This document shows, one piece after another, positions 13,173 to 29,210 of a DNA stretch of 64,000 nucleotides. The notes under the pieces were generated by a model. It searched no databases, was not told the origin of the DNA, and saw nothing but the letters and a program-made list of their open reading frames with translations. Position numbers and translations under genes: made by a program. Position 1 is the first letter of the stretch, and every line of letters begins with the position of its first letter. The stretch is from Streptantibioticus cattleyicolor NRRL 8057 = DSM 46488 (GTDB lineage: Bacteria; Actinomycetota; Actinomycetes; Streptomycetales; Streptomycetaceae): assembly GCF_000240165.1 (NCBI RefSeq), contig NC_017586.1:4030001-4094000 (forward strand), written 5' to 3'.

Positions 13173-14684
13173 TTACCCGGACACCCTCACCGGCGCGCGC
13201 CCCAGCAACTCGGCGAAGGCGTCCGCCACCGGGGCCGGGGTGTCGGCGGCGGCGGAGACGTAGCCGTCGGGGCGGACGAGGAAGAAGCCGGTGCCGTAGG
13301 CGGTGCGTATCTCGTCGCCGTCGGCGTGGCAGAGGTGGGCCAGGGCGGGGTCGAGGGCGGGCGGCGGTTGCTCGGTGCCCACGGCGAGGAGGGTGAAGTG
13401 GGGGCCGCGGAAGGCGTCGAAGAGGCGCAGCGGGCGGCCGTCGGTGGTGTGGCCGTGGGCGTCGGGGGCGCGGTCGCCGGCGTGCAGGGCGTCGTCGGGG
13501 AGCCCGGTGCGGTGTTCACGGCTCAGTGGGCCGCCGCGGTAGCCGACGCCGAGTTGGCGGGTCTCCGCGTCGCGGCGCATCGACGCGGGGCCGACGGTGG
13601 TGCGTACCGCGGTGTGCAGCCGGGTGCTGATGCGCAGAACTCCGGCGGCGACCGGCAGCCGTTCGTCCTGGTAGCTGTCGAGCAGCGCGTCGGGGACGCC
13701 GTGGCGCAGCACCAGGCCGAGCTTCCAGCCGAGGTTGTAGGCGTCCTGGACACCGGTGTTGAGCCCTTGGCCGCCGGCCGGGGAGTGGACGTGGGCGGCG
13801 TCCCCGGCGAGCAGCACGCGGCCGGCCCGGAAGCGGTCGGCGAGCGCGGCGCGGGGGCGGAAGTCGGAGGCCCACAGAACGTCGGTGACCTGGTCCGCGG
13901 AGAAGTGGGTGCGGGCGGCGAGCGCCTCGCGGACCCCCTGCGGGGAGGTGTCGGGGTGTTCCCCGTCGCGTTCGTACCGCACCACCAGCTGGAAGGTGTC
14001 GGTCCCGGCCAGCGGGCAGAGCATCGCCAGGCCGCCGTCGGCCTCGGGCCACACGTGCCAGTTGTCGCGGGGGACGCCCTCGACGCGGACGTCGGCCACG
14101 AGCACGGGGCTGGGGTCGACGCTCTCGCCGGTCATGCCGATGCCCAGCGCGTGGCGCACGGTGCTGCGACCGCCGTCGGCGGCCACGAGATAGGCGGCGC
14201 GGACCGTGCCGGTGGCGCCGTCGGGGCCGGTGAGGGTGGCCACGACGCCGTCCGGCTCCTGACGCAGGGCGGTCAGGGCGGTGCCGAACTCCACGGATCC
14301 GCCCAGCTCGCGCAGGCGGTCGTGGAGGATCTCCTGGGTGCGCCACTGCGGCACCATCCAGGGCAGGCCGTGGGGGACGTGCGGGCTGGGCGGCACGGCC
14401 TCCATGAAGTCCCACTCGGTGACCCGGACGCCCCCTTCCCACTTGGCCATCCGCGGGTAGGGGCCGCCGGCCGCGTGGACGGCGTCGACGATCCCGAGGT
14501 CGTCGAAGACCTCCTGGGTACGCGGCTGCAACCCCTTGCCCCGGGAGCCGGGGAAGAGCCGGCCGGCCCGCTCGACCAGCCGGTGGGCGACCCCGCGGCG
14601 GGCGAGGTCGCAGGCGAGCGTGAGCCCGGTGGGCCCCGCTCCGACGATGAGGACCTCGGTGTCCGTGCTGTTCGTGACCGTCAT
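13173..14684 (-). CDS. FAD-dependent monooxygenase (aromatic/rifampicin-type hydroxylase family)
   Basis: This 503-residue group A flavin monooxygenase has an N-terminal FAD-binding motif (EVLIVGAGPTGLTLACDLARRG), the DG segment AADGGRSTVRHALGI near residue 155, and the second FAD motif GRVLLAGDAAHVHSPAGGQGLN near residue 280. The C-terminal thioredoxin-like region (DRAPDAHGHTTDGRPLRLFDAF) is common in antibiotic-modifying and polyketide hydroxylases. The ATG at 14684 is preceded by AAGGAGGGG; an earlier in-frame ATG would overlap the operator. A divergent TetR gene and two shared operators suggest induction by a small aromatic ligand. The substrate is unknown. Confidence 0.88.
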   Translation of the reverse strand: MTVTNSTDTEVLIVGAGPTGLTLACDLARRGVAHRLVERAGRLFPGSRGKGLQPRTQEVFDDLGIVDAVHAAGGPYPRMAKWEGGVRVTEWDFMEAVPPSPHVPHGLPWMVPQWRTQEILHDRLRELGGSVEFGTALTALRQEPDGVVATLTGPDGATGTVRAAYLVAADGGRSTVRHALGIGMTGESVDPSPVLVADVRVEGVPRDNWHVWPEADGGLAMLCPLAGTDTFQLVVRYERDGEHPDTSPQGVREALAARTHFSADQVTDVLWASDFRPRAALADRFRAGRVLLAGDAAHVHSPAGGQGLNTGVQDAYNLGWKLGLVLRHGVPDALLDSYQDERLPVAAGVLRISTRLHTAVRTTVGPASMRRDAETRQLGVGYRGGPLSREHRTGLPDDALHAGDRAPDAHGHTTDGRPLRLFDAFRGPHFTLLAVGTEQPPPALDPALAHLCHADGDEIRTAYGTGFFLVRPDGYVSAAADTPAPVADAFAELLGRAPVRVSG

Positions 14685-14695
14685 GACGCCCCTCC

Positions 14696-14708
14696 TTAAC
14701 GGCGTTAA
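14696..14708. promoter_or_regulatory. TetR operator, copy 1
   Basis: TTAACGGCGTTAA is a palindrome with 6-bp arms around a central G. It lies 12 bp upstream of the monooxygenase start. An identical copy is at 14730-14742. Confidence 0.8.
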
Positions 14709-14729
14709 ATTCACTCTGGACAAGGTTCC

Positions 14730-14781: not shown

Positions 14782-15462
14782 GTGGTGACGCGACTTGACC
14801 GACTGACCGTGGTGGAGACCGCGCTGCGGCTGCTCAACGAGACGGGCCTGGAGGGGCTGACGCTCCGTCGGATCGCGACCGAGCTGGACGTCAAGGCCCC
14901 CGCCCTCTACTGGCACTTCGCCGGCAAGCAGGCCCTGCTCGACGAGATGGCCACCCGGATCTTCCAGGGGATCATGGACGCCGTGCAGTCGGCGGACGAC
15001 TGGCCCGGATCGGCCCGGTGGCAGGACCTGCTGGCCGAGGCGATGCGGGCGCTGCGAGGCACGCTGCTCTCCTACCGGGACGGTGCCAAGGTGTTCAGCG
15101 GCACCCGGTACACCGGCACCGAGTACGCCGGCCCGCTGGACCGGATGCTCGGCGCCCTGGTGGAGCGGGGGTTCACGGTGCGCACGGCCGGGCGCGCCTG
15201 GTTCACCGCCTACGCCTACACCATCGGCTTCGTGATCGAGGAGCAGGCCGTGATGCCGCTGCCCGGAGAACGCGACCCGTTCTACGACATCGGCGAGCGC
15301 GCCGCACGGCTGGCGGACTACCCGTACGTCGCCGCCGTGGGCACGGAGCTCTTCGACGACTACGACAGCGGCTACGAGGCCGGACTGGCCGTCACCATAG
15401 CCGGGATCGAGGCCAGGCTGGCCCCGGGCGCCGTCACGGAACGGCCGACAGGGACCGTCTGA
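14782..15462 (+). CDS. TetR-family repressor (tetracycline-repressor-like)
   Basis: The 226-residue protein has an N-terminal helix-turn-helix (ALRLLNETGLEGLTLRRIATELDVKAPALYWHFAGKQALLDEM). Its C-terminal ligand domain resembles the TetR class C domain (GTRYTGTEYAGPLDRMLGALVERGFT). It probably binds the two palindromes in the intergenic region and releases on binding a substrate of the monooxygenase. Start is GTG at 14782. The 3' end overlaps the convergent acyltransferase gene by 29 bp. Confidence 0.9.
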   Translation: MVTRLDRLTVVETALRLLNETGLEGLTLRRIATELDVKAPALYWHFAGKQALLDEMATRIFQGIMDAVQSADDWPGSARWQDLLAEAMRALRGTLLSYRDGAKVFSGTRYTGTEYAGPLDRMLGALVERGFTVRTAGRAWFTAYAYTIGFVIEEQAVMPLPGERDPFYDIGERAARLADYPYVAAVGTELFDDYDSGYEAGLAVTIAGIEARLAPGAVTERPTGTV

Positions 15463-16558
15463 GCCGAGGGGCCGACGGGCGCTCCACCACCACGTGCAGC
15501 ACCCAGGCCAGCAGCAGCATCACGGCGACCGTCACCGCCAGCACCACCGGCGCCGGCAGCCGCAGCCCGTGGTGGAGCAGACGCACCACCACCCAGCCCA
15601 GATGCTCGTGCACCAGGTAGAACGGGTAGGTCAGCGCACCCGCGAAGGTCAGCCCGCGCACCTGGACCCGGGCCAGCGGGGTCAGGGTGACCGCGGCCAC
15701 CGCGGCGAAGGCCAGGGTCACCAGGGCGATCACGGCGAGCTGGGAGCGGTGGTGGAAGGCGGCGGCGTGGGCCGGCTGCACCAGCTCACGCACCGCGTAG
15801 TGCTGGCCCAGCAGCCAGCCGGCGGCGACCACGGCCCACCCGGCCGCGTGGTGGCCGAAGCGGTACACCAGATACAGGCCCATCCCGCCGACGAAGAAGG
15901 GAGCGTACTCAGGCATCAGCACCTGGCGCAGCAACGCGTCGTGGGAGGCGTCCGCCAGCACCGCGCCCGCCGTCCACAGCACGCAGAACACCATCACTCG
16001 GCCCCGCGTCGCCCCGCCGCCGCGCCACAGCACACACAACGCGAACAGCAGGTAGAAGCGTGCCTCCGCCCACAGCGTCCAGCACACCCCGAGCACCCGG
16101 TGGGCGCCCACCGGCATCTGGAGCATCGTCAGATTAGTGAGGAGGTCACTGGGCGACACCGGATGGTAGGCCACCCACGGCAACGCGAAGACCGCGGTGA
16201 CCAGGAGCACCGCGGCCCAGTAGGCGGGCAGCAACCGGGCCGCCCGGGACGCGGCGAACGCCCGCGGCCCACGGCCCCAGCCGCTCATGCAGATCACGAA
16301 CCCGCTGATGACGAAGAAGAGTTGGACCCCGAGACACCCGTAGGAGGCCGGACCCGCAAGTCCCGGGAACAGCCGGGAGGGGGAGGCGCCCCAGGCCCGG
16401 GCGATGTCCCCGCCGCGCCCGGCGTAGTGGTAGCCGCAGACCGCCAGCGCGGCCACCAGCCGCAGCCCGTCCAGCGCCCGCAGCCGGGCGGGGCGGCCCG
16501 GCGCCGTCCGTCGTGGTGCCGTGCCGTCGGCGAGGGCGGCCACCGGTGCCGCGGTCAC
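15434..16558 (-). CDS. Acyltransferase 3 family membrane protein
   Basis: The 374-residue protein has about ten membrane helices and the family opening LRALDGLRLVAALAVCGYHY, with the catalytic-type histidine, then GVQLFFVISGFVI. Acyltransferase-3 proteins O-acylate surface sugars or lipids using acyl-CoA. It is the last gene of a leftward trio and overlaps the polysialyltransferase-family gene by GTGA. The likely role is O-acylation of the wall polymer made by the locus, inferred from position. Confidence 0.85.
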   Translation of the reverse strand: MTAAPVAALADGTAPRRTAPGRPARLRALDGLRLVAALAVCGYHYAGRGGDIARAWGASPSRLFPGLAGPASYGCLGVQLFFVISGFVICMSGWGRGPRAFAASRAARLLPAYWAAVLLVTAVFALPWVAYHPVSPSDLLTNLTMLQMPVGAHRVLGVCWTLWAEARFYLLFALCVLWRGGGATRGRVMVFCVLWTAGAVLADASHDALLRQVLMPEYAPFFVGGMGLYLVYRFGHHAAGWAVVAAGWLLGQHYAVRELVQPAHAAAFHHRSQLAVIALVTLAFAAVAAVTLTPLARVQVRGLTFAGALTYPFYLVHEHLGWVVVRLLHHGLRLPAPVVLAVTVAVMLLLAWVLHVVVERPSAPRLRRSLSAVP

Positions 16559-17889
16559 GCCGGCCTCACCCGGCGCCGGATCGCCCGCGCCCGGCGCACC
16601 AGCCGGCGCGCGAGGGCGTTGCGTGGCAGGAACGCCAGCCGCGCCGGGACGCCACCGGGCAACGCCAGCGATGCCAGCCGGCGGCGCTTGAAGTACCGGG
16701 CCCGCAACGGCGGCGGACACGCGGCCAGGCAGCTCACCGCGTCGTCCCGCAGCCCCGGGAGGGCCGACGGCTGCATGCAGTAGCCGACCGCCCGCACCAG
16801 CGAGACCAGTCCGGCGGTGCCCGGCGGCGGGTACGCGGCGCCGTCCGCGTCGTCCAGCGGCGGCAGCAGCGCGTCCACCAGGGTCACCGGGACGCGGTTG
16901 CTGTTCTGGTACGGCGTCAGCCGTTCCAGCAGCGCGGCGGTGCCGGTGCGGGCGACCGGCAGGCCGAAGAGGGAGGAGGCGGTCATCAGCGCGGTGGAGA
17001 AGCAGCCGGCCACCAGTTCCGGGCGGGTGGCGGTGAAGAGCACCTCGGCGAGCACCGGGGTGTCCACCACCCGTAGCTCGACGCCGAGTTCGGCGGCCTC
17101 CTTCTCCAGCGGGCGCGTCCAGTGCGCCGGGGCCGACGGGTGCGGCTTGAAGACCACGGTGCGGTGGCCGCGTGCCGCCACGCCGCGCAGCATCCGCAGG
17201 TGGAGGTGTTCCTCCTCCCGCGCGGTGAGGATGCCCAGCGCGGACAGGTACTGGCCCAGCAGCAGCGCGGCGCCCGTCGGAACGCCGGAGGGCGGCGCCG
17301 CGGCGGCCAGTTGGGAGAGCACCGCCGAGAACGCCTCGGACGGCACCACCACCGGCGGCACCCCGTACTCGGTCAGCAGCAACGGGGTCAGCCCCGGCAC
17401 CAGGTCGAGGTGGAGCAGGGCACGGATCCGGGTGGCCACCAGCGGATCGAGCTTGTTGCGGGTCGGGCCGTAACTCATCAGCCCGTCCGCGTAGACCTCC
17501 ACCGGCGCGTCGGGGAAGAGCCGCACCAGCGCCAGCGCCGGCTCCACCTGGATCGACTCCACCACCAGCGACACCTCGTCGGCGCCGAGGTCCCACAGCG
17601 AGCGCAGATGGCGTTCCCACAACGGCACGTCCTCCGGGCGCGGCGACCAGCCGCCCGGATGGAACGGGAAGACCGCCCCGTTCCACGAGACCACCTGGTC
17701 GAAGCGGTCCCGCAGCGCGCCGAAACCCGGGGCGGCGTCCGGGCCCGGCGTGGTCTCCGGCACCGCCGCGTTGTTGCTGACCACCAGCAGCCGGCGGTCG
17801 GCGGCCGGCAGGCACCCCGCGTCCAGCGCGGCGGCGAGCGTCGCCACCCCGTAGAGCGTCGAGGCGAGCAGGATCTGGGTGCGGGCCAT
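16555..17889 (-). CDS. Polysialyltransferase family glycosyltransferase
   Basis: The 444-residue cytoplasmic protein begins TQILLASTLYGVATLAAALDAGC and contains VVFKPHPSAPAHWTRPLEKEA and VAGCFSTALMTASSLFGLPVARTG. The HP and S-T/A motifs are those of the bacterial alpha-2,8/2,9-polysialyltransferase family. It would extend a nonulosonic-acid polymer from the CMP-activated sugar made by NeuA. It is coupled to both neighbours (TGATG upstream, GTGA downstream). The family call is from motif recognition. Confidence 0.78.
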   Translation of the reverse strand: MARTQILLASTLYGVATLAAALDAGCLPAADRRLLVVSNNAAVPETTPGPDAAPGFGALRDRFDQVVSWNGAVFPFHPGGWSPRPEDVPLWERHLRSLWDLGADEVSLVVESIQVEPALALVRLFPDAPVEVYADGLMSYGPTRNKLDPLVATRIRALLHLDLVPGLTPLLLTEYGVPPVVVPSEAFSAVLSQLAAAAPPSGVPTGAALLLGQYLSALGILTAREEEHLHLRMLRGVAARGHRTVVFKPHPSAPAHWTRPLEKEAAELGVELRVVDTPVLAEVLFTATRPELVAGCFSTALMTASSLFGLPVARTGTAALLERLTPYQNSNRVPVTLVDALLPPLDDADGAAYPPPGTAGLVSLVRAVGYCMQPSALPGLRDDAVSCLAACPPPLRARYFKRRRLASLALPGGVPARLAFLPRNALARRLVRRARAIRRRVRPA

Positions 17890-18926
17890 CAGACGGCCGC
17901 CCCCGCGGTGCGGGCCGCGGCGCCGGGACGGGGCACCCGCCCGAAGACCGCCGGCCCGCGCAGCGGCGCCGGACGGCGCAACCGGCGCAGCACCGCCGCC
18001 CGTTCCAGGTCCATCGCGTCCAGCGCCGAGTCCACCAGGTCCTGCGGCATCCGGCGCAGCGCCCGCGCGCTCGACGACCGCAGCCGGCGCGCCACATGGG
18101 GCTGGAAGCGGTCCTGGCCGGCCAGATGGTGGGAGATGATCGCGCAGTAGGTGCGCACCGCCTTCGGCAGCAGCTCGTCGGCGCGCGGATCGGCGGCGGT
18201 GTCGGCGAGCACCTGGTCGAAGGCGCGGATGAAGTCGAGCTGGCGCACGTCGCCGATCTGGGTCAGCGAGGTCGCCACCCCGCGCCGGTAGAAGACGCCC
18301 AGCAGCCCCAGCACGGCGAAGGAGTCCGCCTCCCGGTGCAGCCGCCAGATCCACGGCCGGTCCTCCGCGGTCCGCAGCCCGTCGGTGAAGTGCAGCAGCC
18401 CGGCCTCCTTGAGCCTGCGGTGGTACATCCCCGCCCAGGCGTACGGATAGTCCACGCAGGTGGCCCGGTCGGCCGGGAGGATCGCCGCACGCGGCGGGAG
18501 CACCACGTTCCGCAGCCCGTGCGGCACCCGGTGCACCACCCGTTCCCGGCCGGTAGCCTGGACGTGGTCGGTGCGCACGAAGTCGCACCCCAGCCGCTCG
18601 ATCGCCGCCAGCAGCCGGGGCAGATATCCCGGGGCCAGCCAGTCGTCCCCGTCCAGGAACGCCAGGTACTCGCCCTCGGCGGCGTCCAGACCGCTGTTGC
18701 GCGCGGTCGCCAGCCCCGCGTTGGCCCGGTGCCGGATCAGCCGCGCCCCGGGCAGCCCGCCGCCGAGCGCCGCGTGCTCCAGGATCTCCGGCGTCCGGTC
18801 GGTGGAACAGTCGTCCACCAGCACGAATTCAAAATCCGAACGCGCATTCAGGGCCAGACTTCGCAGCATGTCCTGAGCGAATTCCTGCACGTTGTAGAAC
18901 GGCACGATGACGGAGAGCTTGACCAC
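17889..18926 (-). CDS. Glycosyltransferase family 2 protein
   Basis: The 345-residue protein has a GT-A fold: KLSVIVPFYNVQEF, VLVDDCSTDRTPEI, ANAGLATARNSGLDAAEGEYLAFLDGDDWLAP (the DGD metal-binding motif near residue 93), and EDRPWIWRLH near residue 215. GT2 enzymes transfer sugars from nucleotide donors to membrane-bound acceptors. It heads the leftward glycopolymer operon. The start is taken as GTG 18926, just before the first beta strand; an ATG upstream at 19061 would add 45 unlikely residues and run far into the divergent promoter region. Confidence 0.85.
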   Translation of the reverse strand: MVKLSVIVPFYNVQEFAQDMLRSLALNARSDFEFVLVDDCSTDRTPEILEHAALGGGLPGARLIRHRANAGLATARNSGLDAAEGEYLAFLDGDDWLAPGYLPRLLAAIERLGCDFVRTDHVQATGRERVVHRVPHGLRNVVLPPRAAILPADRATCVDYPYAWAGMYHRRLKEAGLLHFTDGLRTAEDRPWIWRLHREADSFAVLGLLGVFYRRGVATSLTQIGDVRQLDFIRAFDQVLADTAADPRADELLPKAVRTYCAIISHHLAGQDRFQPHVARRLRSSSARALRRMPQDLVDSALDAMDLERAAVLRRLRRPAPLRGPAVFGRVPRPGAAARTAGAAV

Positions 18927-19114
18927 CCGCCGAACGTTAGGACGCCCGCCGCCATCCGGGATTGCCGGGCGTGTACCGAGAAGTGAACGAAGCGCGGCAA
19001 AGCCGTGAACCACCAAGCGGCACAAGGGTCGTGCGCCGTCCGTCGGCACGCTGTTAACCATTTGTTGCCACCTCGTACGCCCGACGCTCCGATTCGATTC
19101 CTACGGTCTGCGTC
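18927..19114. promoter_or_regulatory. Divergent promoter region of the glycopolymer locus
   Basis: These 188 bp are noticeably richer in A/T than their surroundings and separate the GT2 gene from the rightward operon, so both promoters should lie here. No operator-like palindrome was recognised. Confidence 0.5.
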
Positions 19115-20455
19115 GTGCCGACAAGTGCCCCTCCGGAAAAGCCACGCGACGCCGAGGAAAACCGGCCCGGCCCGCACCGGATCACCGTGCTCGCGGATTC
19201 CGACACCCGCTGGAAATGGGGTGCCGCCACCGCCCGCCGGATCGCCCCGGACACCCTGCCCGAAGGGCTGCTGCTGCGCGGCCGGGCCACCCCGACCGCC
19301 CGCCAGCTCGACGAAGTCGGCCTCGCCGCCGAGGGGTTGCGCGAGGTCACCGCCGCCGGTTTCCTCACCGCCGTGGCCACCACCGACGCCGAGGTGATCG
19401 TCCTCGCCTGCGTCGGCGGCACCGTCCAGGCCATGCTCCACGGCCTCGCCCACGCCTGGCGCGGACGGGCCCGGCGCCCCGTGGTGGTCACCGGCTACGT
19501 CGGCGTGGTCTACGAGAAGCTCACCGACGGACTCCTCCTGCGGCACGGCGCCGACCTGGTGCTCGCCAACAGCCCGTACGACGCGGCCCGGTTCCGTGCC
19601 GTCTACGAAGGCGTCGGCGCCGACCCCGGCAGCGTGGTCACCGGCGCCCTGCCGTTCCTCGGCGGCGCCCCGCACACCCCGCGCCCGGACGGCCCGCGCA
19701 CCGTCGTCCTCGCCGTCCAGCCCTCCGTACCCGAAAGCCGCGAGGACCGCCGCTACCTGCTGCGCCGCGCCGCCGACCACGCCCGACGGCACACCGGACG
19801 CCAGGTGATCGTCAAACTCCGCAGCAAACCCGGCGAACACACCACCCACATCGAGGAACACCCCTACCCCAAGCTCGCCGCCGGCCTCGCCACGCCGCCC
19901 AACCTGCGCTTCGCCTACGGGCCCATGGCCGACGTCCTCGACGAGGCCGACCTGCTGGTGACCGTCAGCTCCACCGCCGCCCTGGAGGCGATCCACCGCG
20001 GCATCCCCACCGCGGTCCTCACCGACCTCGGCGTCCGCGAAGCCCTCGGCAACCATCACTTCCTCGGCTCCGGCTGCCTGGCCTCCTGGGACCAACTCGA
20101 CGCCGGGGCGCTGCCGTCGGCCGACGCCGCCTGGGCCGCCCGGCACGGCGCCCTCCCCGGCCCCGACCCGTACGCGACCGTGCGCCGCCGCGTCACCGAA
20201 CTGGCCGGCGGCGAACTCCCGCCGCTGCGGCCCTACTACACGGCCGCCACCGCGCCCGGCTACCTGCCCGCGCTCCTCGCCCGCCACCACCTCGACGCCA
20301 AGGGCGAACCACTGCCCGGCAGCGCACCCGGCCAGGCACCCGTCGGCCGGCTGCGCGGCACCGTCCACCGCCTGGTACGCGACGCCGCCCGCGGCGCCTA
20401 CCGGCACGGGGTCCAGCACGTGGCCCCGCTCATCCGCCGCTGGGGGCAACTGTGA
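19115..20455 (+). CDS. DUF6716-type putative glycosyltransferase
   Basis: The 446-residue protein opens with RITVLADSDTRWKWGAATARR, which I recall from the Streptomyces DUF6716 group. Later segments (QVIVKLRSKPGEH, YGPMADVLDEADLLVTVSSTAALEAIHRGIPTAVLTDLG) resemble the C-terminal donor-binding half of GT-B enzymes such as CDP-glycerol or capsule transferases. It starts the rightward operon and overlaps neuA by GTGA. A role in adding a sugar or phosphate-linked unit to the polymer is inferred. Confidence 0.65.
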   Translation: MPTSAPPEKPRDAEENRPGPHRITVLADSDTRWKWGAATARRIAPDTLPEGLLLRGRATPTARQLDEVGLAAEGLREVTAAGFLTAVATTDAEVIVLACVGGTVQAMLHGLAHAWRGRARRPVVVTGYVGVVYEKLTDGLLLRHGADLVLANSPYDAARFRAVYEGVGADPGSVVTGALPFLGGAPHTPRPDGPRTVVLAVQPSVPESREDRRYLLRRAADHARRHTGRQVIVKLRSKPGEHTTHIEEHPYPKLAAGLATPPNLRFAYGPMADVLDEADLLVTVSSTAALEAIHRGIPTAVLTDLGVREALGNHHFLGSGCLASWDQLDAGALPSADAAWAARHGALPGPDPYATVRRRVTELAGGELPPLRPYYTAATAPGYLPALLARHHLDAKGEPLPGSAPGQAPVGRLRGTVHRLVRDAARGAYRHGVQHVAPLIRRWGQL

Positions 20456-21156
20456 CCGAACGACCCGTACTCGCCGTCATCCCCGCCCGCGGCGGATCCA
20501 AGGGCGTCCCCGGCAAGAACCTCGCCCCGGTCGGCGGCGTACCGCTGATCACCCGGGCGATCCGCGCCTGCCACGGCGCCCGCCGGGTCACCGCCGTCGT
20601 GGTCAGCACCGACGACGCCGCCATCGCCGCCGCCGCCCGCGCGGCCGGCGCCGAGACCGTGGCCCGCCCCGCCCACCTGGCCGGCGACACCGCGCGCAGC
20701 GAGGACGCCGTGCTGCACGCCCTGGCCGCCTACGAGGACGGCCACCACGTCACCGTCCCCGTCGTCCTGCTCGTCCAGTGCACCAGCCCGTTCGTCACGG
20801 CCGCCGAGATCGACGCGGTGACCGCCGCCGTCACCGAGGACGGCGCCGACACCGCGCTGACCGTCGCCCCCTTCCACGGCTTCCTGTGGCGGGCCGGCCC
20901 GGACGGCGGCCACGGCGTCAACCACGACCGCGCCACCCGGCCGCGCCGCCAGGACCGCCCCGAGGACCTGCTGGAGACCGGCGCCGCCTACGCCATGCGC
21001 AGCGACGGACTGCGCGCCGCCGGCCACCGCTTCTTCGGCCGCACCGCCCTGGTGCGCACCGACCCCGCCCGGGTCCTGGAGATCGACGACCCCGCCGACC
21101 TCGGCCGCGCCCGGGCGCTGGCCGACCTCCTCGACCCCACGCCCCAGCACATCTGA
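20452..21156 (+). CDS. neuA: CMP-sialic acid synthetase-like cytidylyltransferase
   Basis: The 234-residue protein has the NeuA/KdsB nucleotide-binding motif VIPARGGSKGVPGKNL at residues 9-24 and VLLVQCTSPFVTAAEID near 103-119. It couples a nonulosonic acid such as Neu5Ac or Kdn to CMP, providing the donor for the polysialyltransferase-family enzyme. Start is GTG 20452, overlapping the previous stop; neuB follows after 26 bp. The exact sugar cannot be read from sequence. Confidence 0.86.
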   Translation: MTERPVLAVIPARGGSKGVPGKNLAPVGGVPLITRAIRACHGARRVTAVVVSTDDAAIAAAARAAGAETVARPAHLAGDTARSEDAVLHALAAYEDGHHVTVPVVLLVQCTSPFVTAAEIDAVTAAVTEDGADTALTVAPFHGFLWRAGPDGGHGVNHDRATRPRRQDRPEDLLETGAAYAMRSDGLRAAGHRFFGRTALVRTDPARVLEIDDPADLGRARALADLLDPTPQHI

Positions 21157-21182
21157 CCCGCCCCGCGAAAGGAACCGTCCCC

Positions 21183-22130
21183 GTGACCTCGACCGCCCCC
21201 CGCCCGCGCGCCATCGGCGACCGGCAGGTCGGCCCCGGCCGGCCCGTCTACATCACCGGCGAGATCGGCATCAACCACAACGGCGACCTGGAGAACGCCT
21301 ACCGGCTGATCGACGCCGCCGCCGAAGCGGGCTGCGACGCGGTGAAGTTCCAGAAGCGCACCCCCGAGATCTGCACCCCCCGCGACCAGTGGGACCTCGA
21401 ACGCGACACCCCCTGGGGACGCATGACCTACCTGGACTACCGGCACCGGGTGGAGTTCGGCGAGCCGGAGTACCGCGCCATCGACGCCTACTGCCGCAAG
21501 ACGGGCATCGACTGGTTCGCCTCGCCCTGGGACGTCCCCAGCGTCGAGTTCCTGGAGGCCTTCGCGCCGCCCGCGCACAAGGTGGCCTCCGCCTGCCTGA
21601 CCGACGACGAACTGCTGCGCGCCCTGCGGGCCACCGGACGCACCGTGATCCTCTCCACCGGCATGTCCACCCCCCAGCAGATCCGGCACGCCGTCGAGGT
21701 CCTCGGCAGCGAGAACATCGTGCTGTGCCACGCCACCTCCACGTACCCGGCCAAGCACGAGGAGCTCAACCTGCGGATGATCCACACCCTCCAGGCCGAG
21801 TACCCCAACGTGCCGATCGGCTACTCCGGCCACGAGGTCGGCCTGCAGACCACGCTGGCCGCGGTCGCCCTCGGCGCCTGCTTCGTGGAACGCCACATCA
21901 CCCTGGACCGCGCCATGTGGGGCTCCGACCAGGCCGCCTCCGTCGAGGTCCCCGGACTCCAGCGGCTCGTCCGCGACATCCGCATCGTGGAACGCGCCCT
22001 CGGCGACGGCGTCAAGCGGGTCTACGAGGGCGAACTGGCCCCCATGCGCAAGCTGCGCCGGGTCCCCGGGGCGGTCGCCGAGGCGGAGGCCCGGGCCGCC
22101 GACGCGGACCGAGAGCCGGTCACGGCGTGA
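21183..22130 (+). CDS. neuB: N-acetylneuraminate synthase family protein (NeuB-like)
   Basis: The 315-residue enzyme condenses phosphoenolpyruvate with a hexose (ManNAc or mannose type) to make a nine-carbon ulosonic acid. Typical segments are ITGEIGINHNGDLENAYRLIDAAAEAGCDAVKFQKRTPE, FASPWDVPSVEFLE, STGMSTPQQI, IGYSGHEVGLQTTLAAVALGA and ERHITLDRAMWGSDQAAS. It ends near residue 315 with an Ala/Glu-rich tail and appears to lack the C-terminal SAF (antifreeze-like) domain of full-length NeuB. The GTG at 21183 follows GAAAGGAAC. The stop overlaps the next gene (GTGA). Confidence 0.9.
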   Translation: MTSTAPRPRAIGDRQVGPGRPVYITGEIGINHNGDLENAYRLIDAAAEAGCDAVKFQKRTPEICTPRDQWDLERDTPWGRMTYLDYRHRVEFGEPEYRAIDAYCRKTGIDWFASPWDVPSVEFLEAFAPPAHKVASACLTDDELLRALRATGRTVILSTGMSTPQQIRHAVEVLGSENIVLCHATSTYPAKHEELNLRMIHTLQAEYPNVPIGYSGHEVGLQTTLAAVALGACFVERHITLDRAMWGSDQAASVEVPGLQRLVRDIRIVERALGDGVKRVYEGELAPMRKLRRVPGAVAEAEARAADADREPVTA

Positions 22131-23269
22131 ACGGTGCGGACGCGACCGCGCCCGCCGGCCCGCCGCGGGACCCGGCGGACGGCCCGGCCGCGGACACCCT
22201 CGCCCTGGTCGAATCCCCGGTCCAGATCCTCAACCTCCTCGAATGGGTCCACGAACGGCGCACGGCCGGCGAGGACGACCGGGTCACCGCCGTCGTCCTG
22301 CCGCCCCGCGACCCGATGAGCCGGGGCCAGATCCGCCGGATGGCCGAACTCGCCAGGGACGAGGGGCTCGCGCTGCGCTGGTGCGAACCGCGTACCGCCA
22401 CCGCCGGGCCGCTGCGCACCCTGACCGCGCTCGCCCCGGCCCTGGTGCGGGCCGGCCGGCTCGTCCTCGGCGACCCGTTCTCCCGGCTCGTCCAGGCGCT
22501 GCTGCCGCTGAGCCGGGCCCGGGAGATCACGGTGATCGACGACGGCACGGCCACCTTGGAGTTCGTCGCGCTGCTCGGCAGCGGCCGGCGGCTGGTGCGC
22601 TGGCACCGGGGCGGCGGCGGAGCCCTCGGCGCCGCCTTCGGGCCGGTGGCCGCGCTCGCCGGACGGCGGCTGACGGCGGGCCGGGGACGCCGCGTCGAAC
22701 TGTTCACCACCATGCCGGTGACCGCCCCCGAAGGCACCACCCTGCGCGCCAACACCCTGCGCTGGACCCGCGAACGCCACGGCCCCCCGGCGATCCGCCC
22801 CGGCGCCGACCTGATCGGCACCTCCCTGGTGGAGACCGGCGTGGTCGACCCCGACCGCTACCTCGCCGCCGTCGCCGCGCTCACCGCCGCGCACGGCGCC
22901 ACCCGCTACTTCGCGCACCGCAGGGAACGCGAGGACAAACTGCGCCGCCTGTCCGCCGTCACCGGACTGGAGATCGTCCGCCCCGACCTGCCGCTGGAAC
23001 TGGTCGCCCGGCGCGGCCCGATCGGCGCCCGGCTGCTCAGCTTCCCCTCCACCGTGGTCCACACCCTCCCGCTGGCGCTGGCCGGCACCGGGGTCACCGT
23101 CGCCGTCTGCGACATCGACCCCGCCTGGCTGGCCGACGGCGCCGCCGAACGCGCCCACACCTTCCTGACCGGCATCACCCGGGCCGCCCGCACCCGGCAC
23201 GGCCTGCCCGCCGTCACCCCGGCCGGCCCGCCCCCGGCCCTGCCGTTCCCCCGGGCGGTGACCTGGTGA
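22127..23269 (+). CDS. Putative sialyltransferase-like glycosyltransferase (GT52-like)
   Basis: The 380-residue protein starts its fold with DTLALVESPVQILNLLEWV and has EITVIDDGTATLEFVALL in the middle. It ends with VRPDLPLELVARRGPIGARLLSFPSTVVHTL. This pattern, an E-S/T-P-x-Q-x-L-N opening, a DDGTAT strand and a late P-x-E-L / S-T pair, is reminiscent of GT52 and related bacterial sialyltransferases. Position directly after neuA and neuB, with GTGA overlaps on both sides, supports a transferase using CMP-nonulosonate, perhaps priming the polymer. The family assignment is tentative. Confidence 0.55.
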   Translation: MNGADATAPAGPPRDPADGPAADTLALVESPVQILNLLEWVHERRTAGEDDRVTAVVLPPRDPMSRGQIRRMAELARDEGLALRWCEPRTATAGPLRTLTALAPALVRAGRLVLGDPFSRLVQALLPLSRAREITVIDDGTATLEFVALLGSGRRLVRWHRGGGGALGAAFGPVAALAGRRLTAGRGRRVELFTTMPVTAPEGTTLRANTLRWTRERHGPPAIRPGADLIGTSLVETGVVDPDRYLAAVAALTAAHGATRYFAHRREREDKLRRLSAVTGLEIVRPDLPLELVARRGPIGARLLSFPSTVVHTLPLALAGTGVTVAVCDIDPAWLADGAAERAHTFLTGITRAARTRHGLPAVTPAGPPPALPFPRAVTW

Positions 23270-24183
23270 CCCCGGCCGGCGGCACCCCGACGCTCACCAC
23301 GCCGCCCCGTCCCGCGCCTCCCGCCGGAACCCTGGCCGAACTGGCCCGGCGGCACGGGCTCACCCCGGCCGTGCGGCGCCCCACCCCGGCCGAGTACGCC
23401 CGGCAGCTGTGGCAGCGGCGCCACTTCACCGTCGCCTACGCCCGCGCCCGGCTCACCGCGCTGTACGCCACCGCCCGGCTCGGCCAGGTCTGGCACCTGC
23501 TCACCCCGCTGTTCAACGTGGGCGTCTACTGGCTCGTCTTCGGCGTCCTGCTGGACAAGAAGGCGGGCACCGGCGGCAACTACATCGCCTTCCTCTCCGT
23601 CGGCGTGTTCGTCTTCACCTACTCCCGCGAATCGATCGCCACCGGAACCTGGTCGATCTCCAACCGCCTCGAACTGATCAGAGCCGTACGGTTCCCCCGG
23701 GCCTGCCTGCCCATCGCCGCCACCTTGGTGCAACTCCAGCAACTGGTGCTCTCCATGGGCATCGTCGTCGCCATCGTGCTGGCCACCGGCGAACCGTTCA
23801 CCTGGCGCTGGCTGCTGCTGATCCCCGCGCTCACCGCGCAGACCCTCTTCAACCTCGGCTGCGCCATGCTCATGGCCCGCGTCGGCGCCCGCAACCACGA
23901 CATCGGCGAACTCGTCCCGTTCCTGCTGCGCACCTGGATGTACACCTGCGGCGTCTTCTACAGCATCGCCAAGGTCACCGCCCACGCCCCGCACCTGGTC
24001 CGCCTCTGCCTGGAGGCCAATCCCGGCGCCGTCTACATCGAACTCGCCCGGCACGCCCTGCTCGGCTCCTACGGCCGGCTCACCCCGCACGCCTGGCCGC
24101 TGGCCGCCGGCTGGGCGCTGCTCGCCCTCGTCGCCGGCGCCGCCGCCTGCTGGCAGGCCGAGGACCGGTACGGACGCGGCTGA
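23266..24183 (+). CDS. ABC-2 type transporter permease (polysaccharide export)
   Basis: The 305-residue permease has six membrane helices and the TagG/KpsM-like opening YARARLTALYATARLGQVWHLLTPLFNVGVYWLVFGVLL. ISNRLELIRAVRFPRACLPIAA follows, the coupling-helix region of polysaccharide exporters. It probably moves the lipid-linked polymer across the membrane. The matching ATPase subunit is not adjacent and none is found in the window. It starts at GTG 23266, overlapping the previous stop. Confidence 0.87.
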   Translation: MTPAGGTPTLTTPPRPAPPAGTLAELARRHGLTPAVRRPTPAEYARQLWQRRHFTVAYARARLTALYATARLGQVWHLLTPLFNVGVYWLVFGVLLDKKAGTGGNYIAFLSVGVFVFTYSRESIATGTWSISNRLELIRAVRFPRACLPIAATLVQLQQLVLSMGIVVAIVLATGEPFTWRWLLLIPALTAQTLFNLGCAMLMARVGARNHDIGELVPFLLRTWMYTCGVFYSIAKVTAHAPHLVRLCLEANPGAVYIELARHALLGSYGRLTPHAWPLAAGWALLALVAGAAACWQAEDRYGRG

Positions 24184-24277
24184 CCACCGCGCACTGTGAC
24201 CGGCCCACGACACCCCGTTCAACCCCACGCCACCCGTGATCCACCTTCCGCTCACCGCCGTCGGCTTGCCTTGGCCC

Positions 24278-25810
24278 ATGGGGAGCGCACCGCGGAAAAC
24301 CGCACGGATCGCGGTACTCGCGGACACCGGACTCGGCAGCGACGCACGGGCCTACCGGGTCGCGCGATCGGCCGCCGAGGACGGCTACGAGGTCTCACTC
24401 ATCGGCCGCGCCGACGGCCACTGGCCGCCCGCACCGCCCGGCGTCACCGTGCACGCCGTCGAGGTCGCCGAGACCCTCCACCGCCACCGGCTGCGCCGGC
24501 CACGCCCCGGACTGCGCTGGCCCCTGGCCTACCGCTGCGCCGAGGCGTACCGCTACCGCCTGGCCCAACTCGCCTTACGCGACCACGCGTTGCGCACCCG
24601 CTCCGCCGAACTCGGCGTCCTGTACCGCCCGCTGGCCCGGCAGGCCGCCGCCCGCACCGCCCACGCGCTGCTGCGGCTGTGGCACGCCGCCCGCCGCGGC
24701 TGGACGCTGGCCCGCGCCGCCCAGTACCGGGCCGCGGTACGCCGCCGCGCCACCCCCGACCGCTTCCTCGACAACGCCGCCACCGCACTGGCCCGGCTCC
24801 TCCTCGGCCGGCGCGCCTGGCGGCGGCTGGACCCGCTGCTGCTCGACCTGGAGACCGCCTACGGTCCGCTGCTCGACGCGCTGCGCCCGCACCTGGTGCA
24901 CGCCCGGGGCCGCCGCGTCCTCGGCGTCGCGCTGCGCGCCCAGGTCCGCGCGGCGGCGGCCGGACACAGCCTGAAGGTGGTCTGGGACGCCGACGAATGC
25001 GCGGCGCTCACCCCCGCCCCCTCCCGCCGGGCCGCCGCCGCCCGGGACGCCGACGAACGCGCCCACGCGCCCGGCGCCGACGCCGTCGTCACCGTCGGCG
25101 ACGCCTACGCCGACCACCTGCGCCTGCGCCACCGCCTCCCCGAGGCCCCCGCCGTCGTCCTCGACTCGCCCCCGTACACCGCGGGCACCCCCGCCCCGGG
25201 ACCGGACGGCGGGGTACGCGCCCGCTGCCACCTCGGCCCCGACGTCCCCCTGCTGGTGCACAGCGGCGGCACCGCCCCCGAACGCGGCCTGCTCACCGCC
25301 GTCGAAGCGCTCCCCAAGCTCTACGACCTGCACGCCGCCTTCGTCGTCCCCGACCCCGGCGCCCCGCACGTCCGCGAGCTGACCGAACGCGCCGCCCGGC
25401 TCGGCGTGGCGAGCCGGCTGCACGTGCTGGAATACGTCCCCGCGCCCGACGTCCCCGCCTTCCTCGCCTCCGCCGACATCGGGGTGGCCCCCGTCCACCA
25501 CCTGCCGCACCACGAAGTCACGCTCCCCGCCCGCTACTTGGAGTACGCCCACGCCAGGCTCCCGGTGGTGGTCAGCGACGTACGGGCGATGGCCGCGGCC
25601 ACCTTGGAACTGGGCAACGGAGAGGTGTTCCGGGCCGGTGACACCGCCGACTTCGTCCGCGCGGTGGGCGCCGTCCTCACCAACCGGCCGCGCTACCGCA
25701 AGGCGTACGAACGCTCCCCGGAACTGCTGCGCCAGTGGTCCTGGCAGACCCAGTCCGCCGAGCTGATGGCGCTCTACCGGCGGCTGCTGGCCGGCGACCG
25801 CGGGCTGTGA
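24278..25810 (+). CDS. Glycosyltransferase (GT4-like, GT-B fold)
   Basis: The 510-residue protein has an N-terminal acceptor domain (ARIAVLADTGLGSDARAYRVARSAAEDGYEVSLIGR) and a C-terminal donor domain (VPLLVHSGGTAPERGLLTAVEALPKL, LHVLEYVPAPDVPAFLASADIGVAP, EYAHARLPVVVSD). Between them is an Arg-rich helical insert of about 150 residues. This is a GT4-like retaining transferase layout. The start could be ATG 24278 or GTG 24236; neither has a clear ribosome site, and the ATG fits the fold better. It closes the rightward glycopolymer group, 94 bp after the permease. Confidence 0.8.
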   Translation: MGSAPRKTARIAVLADTGLGSDARAYRVARSAAEDGYEVSLIGRADGHWPPAPPGVTVHAVEVAETLHRHRLRRPRPGLRWPLAYRCAEAYRYRLAQLALRDHALRTRSAELGVLYRPLARQAAARTAHALLRLWHAARRGWTLARAAQYRAAVRRRATPDRFLDNAATALARLLLGRRAWRRLDPLLLDLETAYGPLLDALRPHLVHARGRRVLGVALRAQVRAAAAGHSLKVVWDADECAALTPAPSRRAAAARDADERAHAPGADAVVTVGDAYADHLRLRHRLPEAPAVVLDSPPYTAGTPAPGPDGGVRARCHLGPDVPLLVHSGGTAPERGLLTAVEALPKLYDLHAAFVVPDPGAPHVRELTERAARLGVASRLHVLEYVPAPDVPAFLASADIGVAPVHHLPHHEVTLPARYLEYAHARLPVVVSDVRAMAAATLELGNGEVFRAGDTADFVRAVGAVLTNRPRYRKAYERSPELLRQWSWQTQSAELMALYRRLLAGDRGL

Positions 25811-25978: not shown

Positions 25979-26046
25979 CGTCGCAGGGGTGATTTTCTTC
26001 CCCGAAGCGGGCTCGATTTTCCACGACGACACAGCGGGGAGTGGCC

Positions 26047-27246
26047 ATGAGTTCTAGTCTGTCGGGGGTGGACCACTCACTATCCGGGTCCGGCACCCTG
26101 TCCGACGAGCGTTACGACGAACTTGTCGCCTTCCGCCGTGACTTGCACATGCACCCAGAGATCTCCCGTGAGGAATTCCGTACCACCGCGGCCATCTGGT
26201 CCCGGCTGGAGAAGGCCGGGCTGCGCCCCCGTGAGGTGCCCTGCGGCACCGGCCTGATCTGCGACATCGGGGACGCGGACGGCCCCCGGCTGGCGCTGCG
26301 GGCCGACATCGACGCGCTGCCACTGCCCGACACCAAGAACGTCCCCTACCGCTCCACCGAACCCGGCCGCGCGCACGCCTGCGGCCACGACGTGCACACC
26401 ACCTGCGTCCTCGGCGCCGGCCTCGTCCTCGCCGACCTGGCCAGGGAAGGGCGGCTGGCCACCCCGGTACGGCTGATCTTCCAGCCGGCCGAGGAGATCA
26501 TGCCCGGCGGCGCGCTCGACATGGTCAAGGCCGACGTCCTCGACGGCGTCGGGCGCATCCTCGCCGTGCACTGCGACCCCAAGGTCGAGGTCGGCCGGAT
26601 CGGACTGCGCACCGGCTCGATCACCTCCGCCTGCGACCGGCTGGAGCTCTCCATGGACGGCCCGGGCGGCCACACCGCCCGCCCGCACCTGACCACCGAC
26701 CTGGTGATGGCCACCGCCAAGATGGCCACCGAACTCCCCGCGGTCCTCGCCCGCCGCATCGACCCGCGCGGCGGGCTGTCGCTGGTGTGGGGACGCATCG
26801 AATCCGGTCACGCACCCAACGTCATCCCCCAGCACGCCGAGCTGGAGGGCACCGTGCGCTGCCTCGACCTGGCCGCCTGGCACGAGGCTCCCGACCTCAT
26901 CCACGAGATCGTCGACCAGATCTCCTCGATGTACCGGGCCAAGTGGGAGGTCACCTACCAGCGCGGCGTCCCCCCGGTGGTGAACGACGCCGACTCGGCG
27001 GAACTGCTGCGCGACGCGATGACCGCCCGCTTCGGCGCCCACTGCGTCGAGGACACCGAGCAGAGCCTCGGCGGCGAGGACTTCTCCTGGTACCTCGAAC
27101 ACGTCCCCGGCGCCCTCGCCCGCCTCGGGGTCCGCCCCGTCGGGGACCCGGTGGTCCGCGACCTCCACCGCGGCGACTTCGACGCGGACGAGCAAGCCAT
27201 CCGCGTCGGCGCCGAACTCTTCGTCCAAGCGGTCCAACTCTCCTGA
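26047..27246 (+). CDS. M20 family amidohydrolase / metallopeptidase
   Basis: The 399-residue enzyme belongs to the M20D group, which hydrolyses N-acyl amino acids or peptides with two metal ions. Visible metal-site motifs are RRDLHMHPEISREE at the N-terminus, HACGHDVHTTCVLGAG near residue 110, FQPAEE near 147 and LGGEDFSWYL near 340. The ATG at 26047 is preceded by GCGGGGAG, a good ribosome site; a GTG at 26041 is the alternative. The stop is followed within 1-2 nt by the terminus of repeat element copy A. Confidence 0.9.
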   Translation: MSSSLSGVDHSLSGSGTLSDERYDELVAFRRDLHMHPEISREEFRTTAAIWSRLEKAGLRPREVPCGTGLICDIGDADGPRLALRADIDALPLPDTKNVPYRSTEPGRAHACGHDVHTTCVLGAGLVLADLAREGRLATPVRLIFQPAEEIMPGGALDMVKADVLDGVGRILAVHCDPKVEVGRIGLRTGSITSACDRLELSMDGPGGHTARPHLTTDLVMATAKMATELPAVLARRIDPRGGLSLVWGRIESGHAPNVIPQHAELEGTVRCLDLAAWHEAPDLIHEIVDQISSMYRAKWEVTYQRGVPPVVNDADSAELLRDAMTARFGAHCVEDTEQSLGGEDFSWYLEHVPGALARLGVRPVGDPVVRDLHRGDFDADEQAIRVGAELFVQAVQLS

Positions 27247-28157: not shown

Positions 28158-29210
28158 GTGCGCCGGGTAACCACGCTCACCGCCGCCGGCATCGCCACCG
28201 CGGCACTCGCCCTCACCGCCACCGCGTGTGGCGCCAGCTCCACCGACTCGACCGGCTCGTCGTCCTCCTCGGGCGGCGCCGGGATGAAGGTCGGCGTCGC
28301 CTACGACGTCGGCGGTCGCGGCGACCACTCGTTCAACGACTCCGCCGCCCGCGGCCTGGACAAGGCCACCAAGGAGTTCGGCGGCACGCCGAAGGAGCTG
28401 ACCGCCAAGACCACGGACACCGAGTCCGACCGCGAGCAGCACCTGTCGGACCTCGCGTCGGCCGGTTACAACCCGGTGGTCGCGGTGGGCTTCGCCTACG
28501 CCGACGCCATCAAGGCGGTCGCGCCGAAGTTCCCGAAGACCAACTTCGGCATCGTCGACTCGGTCGTCCCCGGCTCCAACGTGGACAGCATGACCTTCGC
28601 CAGCCCGGAGAGCTCCTACCTGGCGGGCGTGGCCGCGGCGCTGAAGTCCAAGACCGGCCACGTCGGCTTCATCGGCGGTGTGGACAACGCCCTGATCAAG
28701 GGCTTCCAGGCGGGCTTCGAGCAGGGCGTGAAGGACACCAAGCCGGCCGACAAGGTCACCGTGCAGTACCTGAGCACCGGCTCCGACATCTCCGGCTTCA
28801 GCAGCCCCGACAAGGGCAAGAGCGCGGCCAACGGCATGCTCTCCCAGGGCATCGACGTGATCTACACCGCGGCCGGCAGCTCCGGCTCCGGCGCCATCGA
28901 GGCCGTCCACGGCAAGGCCGGCGCCTGGGCCATCGGCGTCGACTCCGACCAGTACCAGGATCCGGGCCTGGCCGCCTACAAGTCCTCGATCCTGACCTCC
29001 GCGGTCAAGAACGTCGACCTCGCGGTGTACGAGCTGATCAAGAGCGTGCACGACAAGAAGCCGATCAGCGGCAACCGTACCTACGGCCTCGCCGAGGGCG
29101 GCGTCTCGCTGGCCACCAGCGGCGGCTACATCACCGACATCCAGGCGCAGCTCGACGCGGCCCGGAAGAAGATCGTCAACGGCCAGGTCAAGGTCAAGTC
29201 GACCCCGTGA
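28158..29210 (+). CDS. BMP family nucleoside-binding lipoprotein
   Basis: The 350-residue solute-binding protein has a signal peptide ending in the lipobox LTATAC and a Ser/Gly linker. The Bmp/PnrA fold follows: KVGVAYDVGGRGDHSFNDSAARGL, VAVGFAYADAIKAVAPKFPKTNFGIVDS, SYLAGVAAALKSKTGHVGFIGG, GVDSDQYQ. The family binds purine or other nucleosides for ABC import. The GTG at 28158 is preceded by GAAGGGG. It is followed by a hairpin and then the ATPase and two permeases, completing an importer. Confidence 0.92.
   Translation: MRRVTTLTAAGIATAALALTATACGASSTDSTGSSSSSGGAGMKVGVAYDVGGRGDHSFNDSAARGLDKATKEFGGTPKELTAKTTDTESDREQHLSDLASAGYNPVVAVGFAYADAIKAVAPKFPKTNFGIVDSVVPGSNVDSMTFASPESSYLAGVAAALKSKTGHVGFIGGVDNALIKGFQAGFEQGVKDTKPADKVTVQYLSTGSDISGFSSPDKGKSAANGMLSQGIDVIYTAAGSSGSGAIEAVHGKAGAWAIGVDSDQYQDPGLAAYKSSILTSAVKNVDLAVYELIKSVHDKKPISGNRTYGLAEGGVSLATSGGYITDIQAQLDAARKKIVNGQVKVKSTP

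Follow-up and report, generated by a model that had tools for sequence, protein, structure and literature searches.

Results

A divergent locus with a conserved four-gene core

We analysed a stretch of 64,000 nucleotides from Streptantibioticus cattleyicolor NRRL 8057 = DSM 46488 (NC_017586.1, positions 4,030,001-4,094,000, 8.1 Mb genome; hereafter the window, to which all coordinates refer unless stated otherwise), whose relatives, according to a NeuB search of genome contigs, are Streptomyces and near genera. Our focus is a set of genes at 15434-25810 that is predicted to make and export a wall glycopolymer containing a nonulosonic acid. A preliminary description of this DNA had placed nine tightly coupled genes here. 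All nine frames were confirmed, lying in two divergent groups, and the tight coupling was borne out by 4-base GTGA overlaps at four junctions (polyST/acyltransferase, DUF6716/NeuA, NeuB/GT52-like and GT52-like/permease). The minus-strand group comprises a GT2 glycosyltransferase (17889-18926; PF00535, 4.1e-32), a polysialyltransferase-family protein (polyST, 16555-17889; PF07388, 99.6 bits against a cut-off of 23.3) and an Acyl_transf_3 acyltransferase (15434-16558; PF01757, 4e-21), which probably O-acylates the polymer. The plus-strand group opens with a DUF6716 protein (19115-20455; PF20471, 1.3e-113, 379.9 bits), followed by the cytidine monophosphate (CMP)-nonulosonate synthetase NeuA (20452-21156; PF02348, 4.3e-22), the nonulosonate synthase NeuB (21183-22130; PF03102, 2e-79, 266.9 bits), a protein labelled 'GT52-like' (22127-23269), an ABC-2 exporter permease (23266-24183; ABC2_membrane, PF01061, 1.7e-8) and a GT4-type glycosyltransferase (24236-25810; PF13692, 2.6e-14). 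Pfam supported eight of the nine products, as translated from provisional starts; for the GT52-like protein, neither Pfam nor NCBIfam gave a hit with an E of 0.1 or below. The NeuB start was corrected to GTG 21183, and the GT2 start is most likely GTG 18926 or 18923 instead of ATG 19061, because in-frame stops of the relatives and a conserved promoter element lie upstream.

As named relatives we used the best 80 loci from the NeuB scan (77 with Streptomyces titles, two Actinacidiphila, one Streptantibioticus), scoring each gene in the eligible loci, that is, those with sufficient flanking DNA. Four genes were present throughout, namely DUF6716 (73/73), NeuA (76/76), GT52-like (72/72) and NeuB (80/80, being the query), and form the invariant core of the named loci. 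The polyST (60/67) and GT2 (65/72) genes are dispensable, and the acyltransferase gene occurred at 25 of 64 loci. Of the genes named in the preliminary description, the permease (1/72) and GT4 (2/72) genes do not belong to this core. The GT4 gene was also found in L124-L128, L145 and L152-L154, and permease and GT4 genes occur in several other genera. Order and strand, with GT2 on the minus strand and DUF6716-NeuA-NeuB-GT52-like on the plus strand, were kept in 63/63 of the named loci that carry the full set of five, as well as in the window; the arrangement is therefore not due to chance.

Within the family, DUF6716 matches were obtained in 204 of 297 genomes, 200 of them above the cut-off. 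From this list 40 genomes were hand-picked, 20 with and 20 without DUF6716, excluding the weak match G033. The GT52-like protein was present in 20/20 of the positive and 0/20 of the negative genomes. NeuB was found in 19/20 positive genomes, and among the negative ones gave a strong match in two (G009, G013) and a weak match in two (G004, G030). Because three genera (g3, g7 and g9) each include genomes of both kinds, DUF6716 and the GT52-like protein appear to have been gained or lost jointly. Across the phylum, the GT52-like protein was detected in at least 7 of 198 genomes, a loose lower bound given that ten candidates were scored per genome, comprising six in the family of the window and a partial match in G326 (5.9e-16). 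As a separate observation, exactly one of the 14 control genomes, that of Escherichia coli, scored above the cut-off for DUF6716.

Relation to the teichulosonic-acid locus of Streptomyces

In Streptomyces coelicolor, SCO4873-SCO4882 is described as the teichulosonic-acid cluster, under PhoP (PMC13011467), and a teichulosonic acid containing 3-deoxy-D-glycero-D-galacto-non-2-ulosonic acid (Kdn) is given as the major wall glycopolymer (PMC7831098; similarly PMC11481543), the polymer consisting of galactose and Kdn (PMC7831098, PMC11481543). The annotations in PMC2267785 name SCO4877 as hypothetical, SCO4878 as glycosyltransferase, SCO4879 as conserved hypothetical, SCO4880 as transferase and SCO4881 as polysaccharide biosynthesis protein, and PMC8269224 names SCO4882 as hypothetical and lists SCO4880 with a sialic acid synthase. 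Read in order, these entries fit polyST, GT2, DUF6716, NeuA, NeuB and GT52-like. SCO4877-SCO4882 also appear in the lists of phosphate-response genes for S. coelicolor and Planobispora (PMC2267785, PMC8269224, PMC13011467). The preliminary description had likened the locus to a Kdn-linked region of S. coelicolor, and this fit of gene order and annotation supports the comparison. By these criteria, we are dealing with a variant form of a known kind of locus, the teichulosonic-acid cluster of Streptomyces. It resembles S. coelicolor SCO4873-SCO4882 and S. lividans SLI_5146-SLI_5156 in gene order and in a probable link to phosphate. It differs in that its NeuA lacks the phosphatase domain seen in the named Streptomyces loci and in having the permease and GT4 genes.

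The divergent promoter region of the window harbors a PHO-box-like element (19042-19074, plus strand) with an 11-base period, GTCGGCACGCT GTTAACCATTT GTTGCCACCTC. Among 94 divergent regions, 88 carried this period around GCT GTT(A/C/T)AC(C/T)NNNN GTTG, always on the same strand. The six misses were L034, L050, L057, L060, L071 and L090, of which L090 is the window itself, its site being masked by the over-long GT2 frame, and L057 has its site cut by the extracted stretch. Across the compared loci, whose strands add up to 3.63 Mb, the pattern GTT[ACT]AC[CT]N4GTTG had 101 sites, with 89 sites in the 94 regions, as compared to a single site for the reversed pattern. S. tendae (L064) carries the exact heptamer GTTCACC, which is the S. 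coelicolor PHO consensus heptamer (PMC6283541). A simple consensus scan gave a median of 10.3 in the divergent regions versus 9.0 in single-base shuffles, with 48% of the regions at or above the 95th percentile of the shuffles; not being decisive, it was replaced by the conserved-motif count. In the S. cattleyicolor genome, GTTCACT-N4-GTTCACC lies upstream of pstS, and this type of box is therefore in use. Counting GTTNACC-N4-GTTNRCC genome-wide was uninformative, with 2 sites and 2 in the reversed control. Judged by its promoter sequences, the genome may have both wall-polymer regions, the present locus and that of the paralogous exporter described below, under PhoP control.

The GT52-like protein is a candidate CMP-nonulosonate transferase

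The preliminary description had suggested fold prediction for the GT52-like and DUF6716 products, and both predictions were carried out. The AlphaFold2 model of the GT52-like protein (45 alignment rows, predicted local distance difference test score (pLDDT) 88.3) has a GT-B fold nearest to the polysialyltransferase/sialyltransferase group. Its best match is the bacterial polysialyltransferase 5wcn (Z 19.4 over 326 residues, root-mean-square deviation (rmsd) 6.9), with 5wc6 at Z 19.0, and next come the 2,6-sialyltransferase 2z4t (Z 14.7) and the epimerase 6vlb (Z 14.6); Foldseek ranked the same two polysialyltransferase chains first. A profile of the GT52-like family, run against the sequences of solved structures, returned three ribosomal matches only (E 0.16-0.79). 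The polysialyltransferase MhPST has E153 of the E152-E153-G motif as its proposed base, H291 as the residue that stabilises CMP, E323 as its ribose ligand and the S339-T340 pair as an aid in holding the phosphate (PMC5517516), and NmB-polyST requires its D/E-D/E-G and HP motifs (PMC2169525). When mapped by order and spacing, not by superposed coordinates, the GT52-like counterparts are D138-D139-G140, H264, E291 and S308-T309, all invariant in 45 sequences, with a spacing of H-27-E-17-S, close to the 32 and 16 of MhPST. The HP motif is not found in these sequences, in which the invariant H264 precedes an invariant R265. Because the best fold match is a polysialyltransferase and the acid pair, His, Glu and Ser-Thr are kept, the GT52-like protein is probably the CMP-nonulosonate transferase. 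It shares fold and residue order with the GT38 polysialyltransferases (MhPST, NmB-polyST) and with GT52/GT80, and differs from them in its H-R pair, its Gram-positive wall context and its donor, probably CMP-Kdn. Its provisional name is thus upheld at the level of fold and active site, though not by any Pfam or NCBIfam sequence match.

The polyST-family protein has A132-D133-G134, H248-P249, E280 and S296-T297 invariant in 8 sequences, with spacings of 32 and 16, and is a possible second, accessory CMP-ulosonate transferase. As main Kdn transferase it was rejected, being absent from 7 of the 67 eligible named loci, which keep the core, and having no match in the further loci L129 and L130. The preliminary description had left the GT52-like protein without a step. 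This no longer stands, as the GT52-like protein, instead of polyST, is now the constant nonulosonate-transferase candidate.

NeuB, NeuA and the probable identity of the sugar

NeuB has the PF03102 barrel and ends about 40 residues past the barrel match, with no Pfam match to the C-terminal antifreeze-like (SAF) domain. Its alignment with NmeNANAS stops at NmeNANAS residue 283, about where this domain would begin. Counting duplicates, 95 of the 97 matches have a tail of 50-78 amino acids between GSDQ and the stop, and the remaining two are artefacts of a wrong reading frame. In NmeNANAS, the single active-site residue of the antifreeze-like domain, Arg314, places the N-acetyl group, the R314A variant is inactive, and mannose is not accepted (PMC6795526). 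A NeuB without this domain would fit an N-acetyl-free, mannose-type substrate.

In relatives, the NeuA gene continues into a KdsC-like HAD domain with the motifs DFDGTQTDD and GND(V/A)ND, whereas the window NeuA lacks this domain and is followed by a 30-base gap to the NeuB match. An initial comparison (duplicates of four genomes included) found the domain at 80 of 93 loci, at each of the 80 in one open frame with NeuA, and none of the 13 loci lacking it is a named locus. After deduplication and with more genera, 82 of 93 loci had the domain and 11 (the window and ten others) did not, in a sample for which some loci were fetched because they lack it. On a midpoint-rooted FastTree phylogeny of the four core proteins, the domain-lacking loci form three groups, the window sitting in the largest, and imply at least 3 changes, compared to a mean of 10.5 and a minimum of 8 in 300 label shuffles. 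We tentatively read the changes as losses. NCBIfam scored the relatives' domain as KdsC (1.4e-28) and KDN-9-phosphatase (6.4e-21), both below cut-off. It shares motifs with KdsC and with the KDN-9-phosphate phosphatase family NF058599, which we take to be of Bacteroides origin, but differs from both in its fusion to a cytidylyltransferase; a literature search on NeuA-phosphatase fusions found only unrelated work. Judged by this domain, Kdn-9-phosphate is most likely an intermediate in the relatives, and the window genome would use either an unrelated phosphatase or a route that skips the phosphate. We also considered that NeuB had co-evolved with the phosphatase, as 13 positions differed between 5 loci without and 80 loci with the HAD domain. 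This was rejected when, at 11 versus 89 loci, most of these residues also occurred in domain-bearing relatives (such as L002 and L152), pointing to ancestry.

Our favoured reading, at a probability of about 0.74, is a locus for the synthesis and export of a wall glycopolymer of the teichulosonic-acid type, which is free of phosphate and whose nonulosonic acid is most likely Kdn. Several observations weigh against it. For NeuB, the best NCBIfam model is NeuB_NnaB (238.7 bits, cut-off 399.65) and for NeuA it is PseF (100.8, cut-off 205.7), and since both proteins fall far below every equivalog cut-off, their sequences do not tell which sugar is made. Among PDB chains, NeuB is matched best by 6ncs (290 residues, matched to 271), likewise a short protein, which bears the label sialic acid synthetase. 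Outside the locus, the genome has a single PF02350 epimerase and a single weak PF07221 match, which make a route via N-acetylmannosamine (ManNAc) possible. In a search of 13 chosen genomes, the phosphatase domain gave strong matches in 4, and the best match in the window genome had an E of 0.0064 over 66 amino acids, which leaves the dephosphorylation step a puzzle. The GT52-like protein has H-R instead of H-P and no Pfam match. The window copy of the promoter element, taken alone, scores 10.5 of 14 against the consensus, a value reached by 44 of 345 window pieces of the same size. S. coelicolor is not among the best 80 loci, and orthology is drawn from order, annotation and the S. tendae locus, presumably that of a near relative. 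We infer which of SCO4880 and SCO4881 is NeuA and which is NeuB, and PMC8269224 places the sialic acid synthase at SCO4880. Finally, given the variable permease and GT4 genes, the window polymer may differ from that of S. coelicolor.

The family scores, the label of 6ncs and the two epimerase matches speak for a nonulosonate that is N-acylated (N-acetylneuraminic acid-like or other), with ManNAc supplied by an epimerase from elsewhere in the genome and the wall-polymer pathway otherwise unchanged. We consider this unlikely. The PF02350 protein lies far from the locus and reads as the non-hydrolysing type, which yields uridine diphosphate (UDP)-ManNAc, and the genome has no NanE match. Moreover, NeuB is devoid of the domain through which NmeNANAS contacts the N-acetyl group (PMC6795526), and S. 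coelicolor has Kdn (PMC7831098, PMC11481543). The preliminary description had argued for Kdn from the lack of an epimerase. Kdn remains plausible, but with PF02350 and PF07221 matches in the genome that argument is weak; a better case is made by the lack of an antifreeze-like domain in NeuB and by the KdsC-like domain that relatives carry on their NeuA.

DUF6716 is a probable GT-B glycosyltransferase

The DUF6716 model (37 alignment rows, pLDDT 82.2) likewise has a GT-B fold, nearest to UDP-N-acetylglucosamine (UDP-GlcNAc) 2-epimerases. The top match is the UDP-GlcNAc 2-epimerase 6vlb_B (Z 19.8 over 305 residues, rmsd 3.9), 25 of the 28 top rows are titled 'epimerase' (Z 19.8 to 17.7), the others being 8ahe, MnaA 5enz and CapG 7ya2, and Foldseek ranks an epimerase first as well. 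The first glycosyltransferases, BshA and MGD1, appear at Z 17.7. Together with the position of DUF6716 as first gene of the NeuA-NeuB operon and a constancy equal to that of NeuA and NeuB, these matches raise the possibility that DUF6716 supplies the substrate of NeuB, as a sugar 2-epimerase akin to NeuC or WecB. The motifs argue otherwise. The genome's own PF02350 epimerase has GDTATT, HVEAG, PEEGNR and HRRE, GD and HVEAG being catalytic motifs of UDP-GlcNAc 2-epimerases. The DUF6716 alignment has none of GDT, HVEAG, PEEGNR and HRRE, with GGT and TGYVG at like places, as compared by weak pairwise alignment and strand order, not by superposed coordinates. When the two profiles were compared, only the C-terminal nucleotide site aligned, at a probability of 5.9%, with E291 falling on the epimerase glutamate pair. 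We therefore hold an epimerase function to be quite improbable. Based on its model, DUF6716 is probably a glycosyltransferase of the main chain, of the GT-B class that uses nucleoside diphosphate (NDP)-sugars. The preliminary description had given it no step; it now has a class, though not an exact reaction. A role as sialyltransferase was considered and rejected, as the alignment shows no combination of D/E-D/E-G with HP, and as the S-x4-E nucleotide site of DUF6716 lines up with the corresponding site in a UDP-sugar enzyme. The DUF6716 profile had no match among the sequences of solved structures, and the name was not found in the literature searched.

Export, wall attachment and neighbouring genes

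The window permease is 52-53% identical to the one related permease of the genome (C2:5329250), which is followed there by an ABC ATPase. With this ATPase as query, no other place in the window or in the compared loci matched at E up to 1e-15. The simplest reading of these sequence matches is that the ATPase of the paralogous exporter is shared. Loci L129 and L130, of genus g3, present DUF6716-NeuA-NeuB-GT52-like-permease, with the phosphatase on NeuA, beside genes for a YkcB-type membrane transferase and an LCP ligase (L129 14850-16514; L130 2800-4569). Neither locus had a polyST (tblastn), GT2 or GT4 match. This minimal set, with one predicted CMP-sugar and one predicted NDP-sugar transferase, matches the requirements of a disaccharide repeat. 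The nine genes include no recognised ligase, flippase or ATPase, which speaks for a product not anchored to the wall, such as a soluble or lipid-linked glycoconjugate, or for the modification of some other surface molecule. We consider this very unlikely: the operon includes an exporter permease, an LCP ligase gene adjoins the core in L129 and L130, and the S. coelicolor and S. lividans regions are linked in print to a wall polymer (PMC13011467).

The paralogous exporter has a further feature in its vicinity. The sole exact GTTCACC-N4-GTTCACC site among the genome-wide hits described above (14/14; C2:5323684-5323701, corresponding to L122 3685-3702) lies about 130 bases upstream of a DUF5941/cytidine diphosphate-alcohol transferase frame and about 5.5 kb before the exporter permease and ATPase genes. 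Beside the acyltransferase gene, whose end is overlapped by the 14782-15462 frame, the genes at 13173-14723 and 14782-15462, presumably FAD monooxygenase-like and TetR-like, recur in 14/63 and 16/63 eligible named loci. On the other side, the genes at 26041-27246 and 28158-29210, which we take to encode an M20 peptidase and a lipoprotein with no known link to the polymer, flank the locus in 65/69 and 61/69 eligible named loci. The gap between the GT52-like and M20 genes ranges from -88 to 8005 bases (66 loci among L002-L081), and in several cases holds other open frames, marking an insertion spot.

Discussion

Family, fold, motif and gene order allow us to propose a pathway for the wall polymer. 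NeuB would condense phosphoenolpyruvate with mannose or mannose-6-phosphate. The 9-phosphate product, if formed, would be dephosphorylated by the NeuA-fused domain in most of the compared relatives and by another enzyme in the window genome, and NeuA would then form the CMP-sugar. The GT52-like protein would move the nonulosonate from CMP via its polysialyltransferase-like active site. DUF6716 would draw on an NDP-sugar to add the neutral sugar that alternates with it, which S. coelicolor suggests to be galactose, such that the two enzymes together could build a disaccharide repeat. The polyST-family, GT2, GT4 and acyltransferase proteins would serve in linkage or side-chain decoration. The permease would export the chain, probably with the ATPase of the paralogous exporter, and an LCP ligase would attach it to peptidoglycan. 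Upon phosphate shortage, PhoP would induce the divergent operons.

A more far-reaching proposal, which we put forward tentatively and consider somewhat less than evenly balanced, is that DUF6716 and the GT52-like protein represent two undescribed glycosyltransferase families forming a minimal alternating hexose-Kdn polymerase, in a pathway with a fused CMP-Kdn synthetase/Kdn-9-phosphatase from which the clade of the window and two others switched to a phosphatase-free route, with NeuB acting on free mannose or with a recruited phosphatase. In the passages on teichulosonic acid that we examined, none of the genes of the S. coelicolor cluster is given an enzymatic step of its own. The four-gene core, together with a named candidate for the Kdn-adding enzyme, would offer a sharper division of labour than we found in print. 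Moreover, the changes in the phosphatase domain, at least three in number, would constitute a natural experiment on whether bacterial Kdn is made via the 9-phosphate.

A broadly similar surface polymer, that of S. griseus, is described as the receptor for an antagonistic toxin (PMC13274773). This umbrella-toxin receptor, teichuronic-acid-like, is likewise a variable anionic wall glycopolymer of Streptomyces, but, unlike the polymer predicted for the window, its account in PMC13274773 gives N-acetylgalactosamine and 2,3-diacetamido-2,3-dideoxymannuronic acid (ManNAc3NAcA) as building blocks, with no nonulosonate among them. Because a similar polymer is a toxin receptor, the variation seen among these loci may have an ecological meaning.

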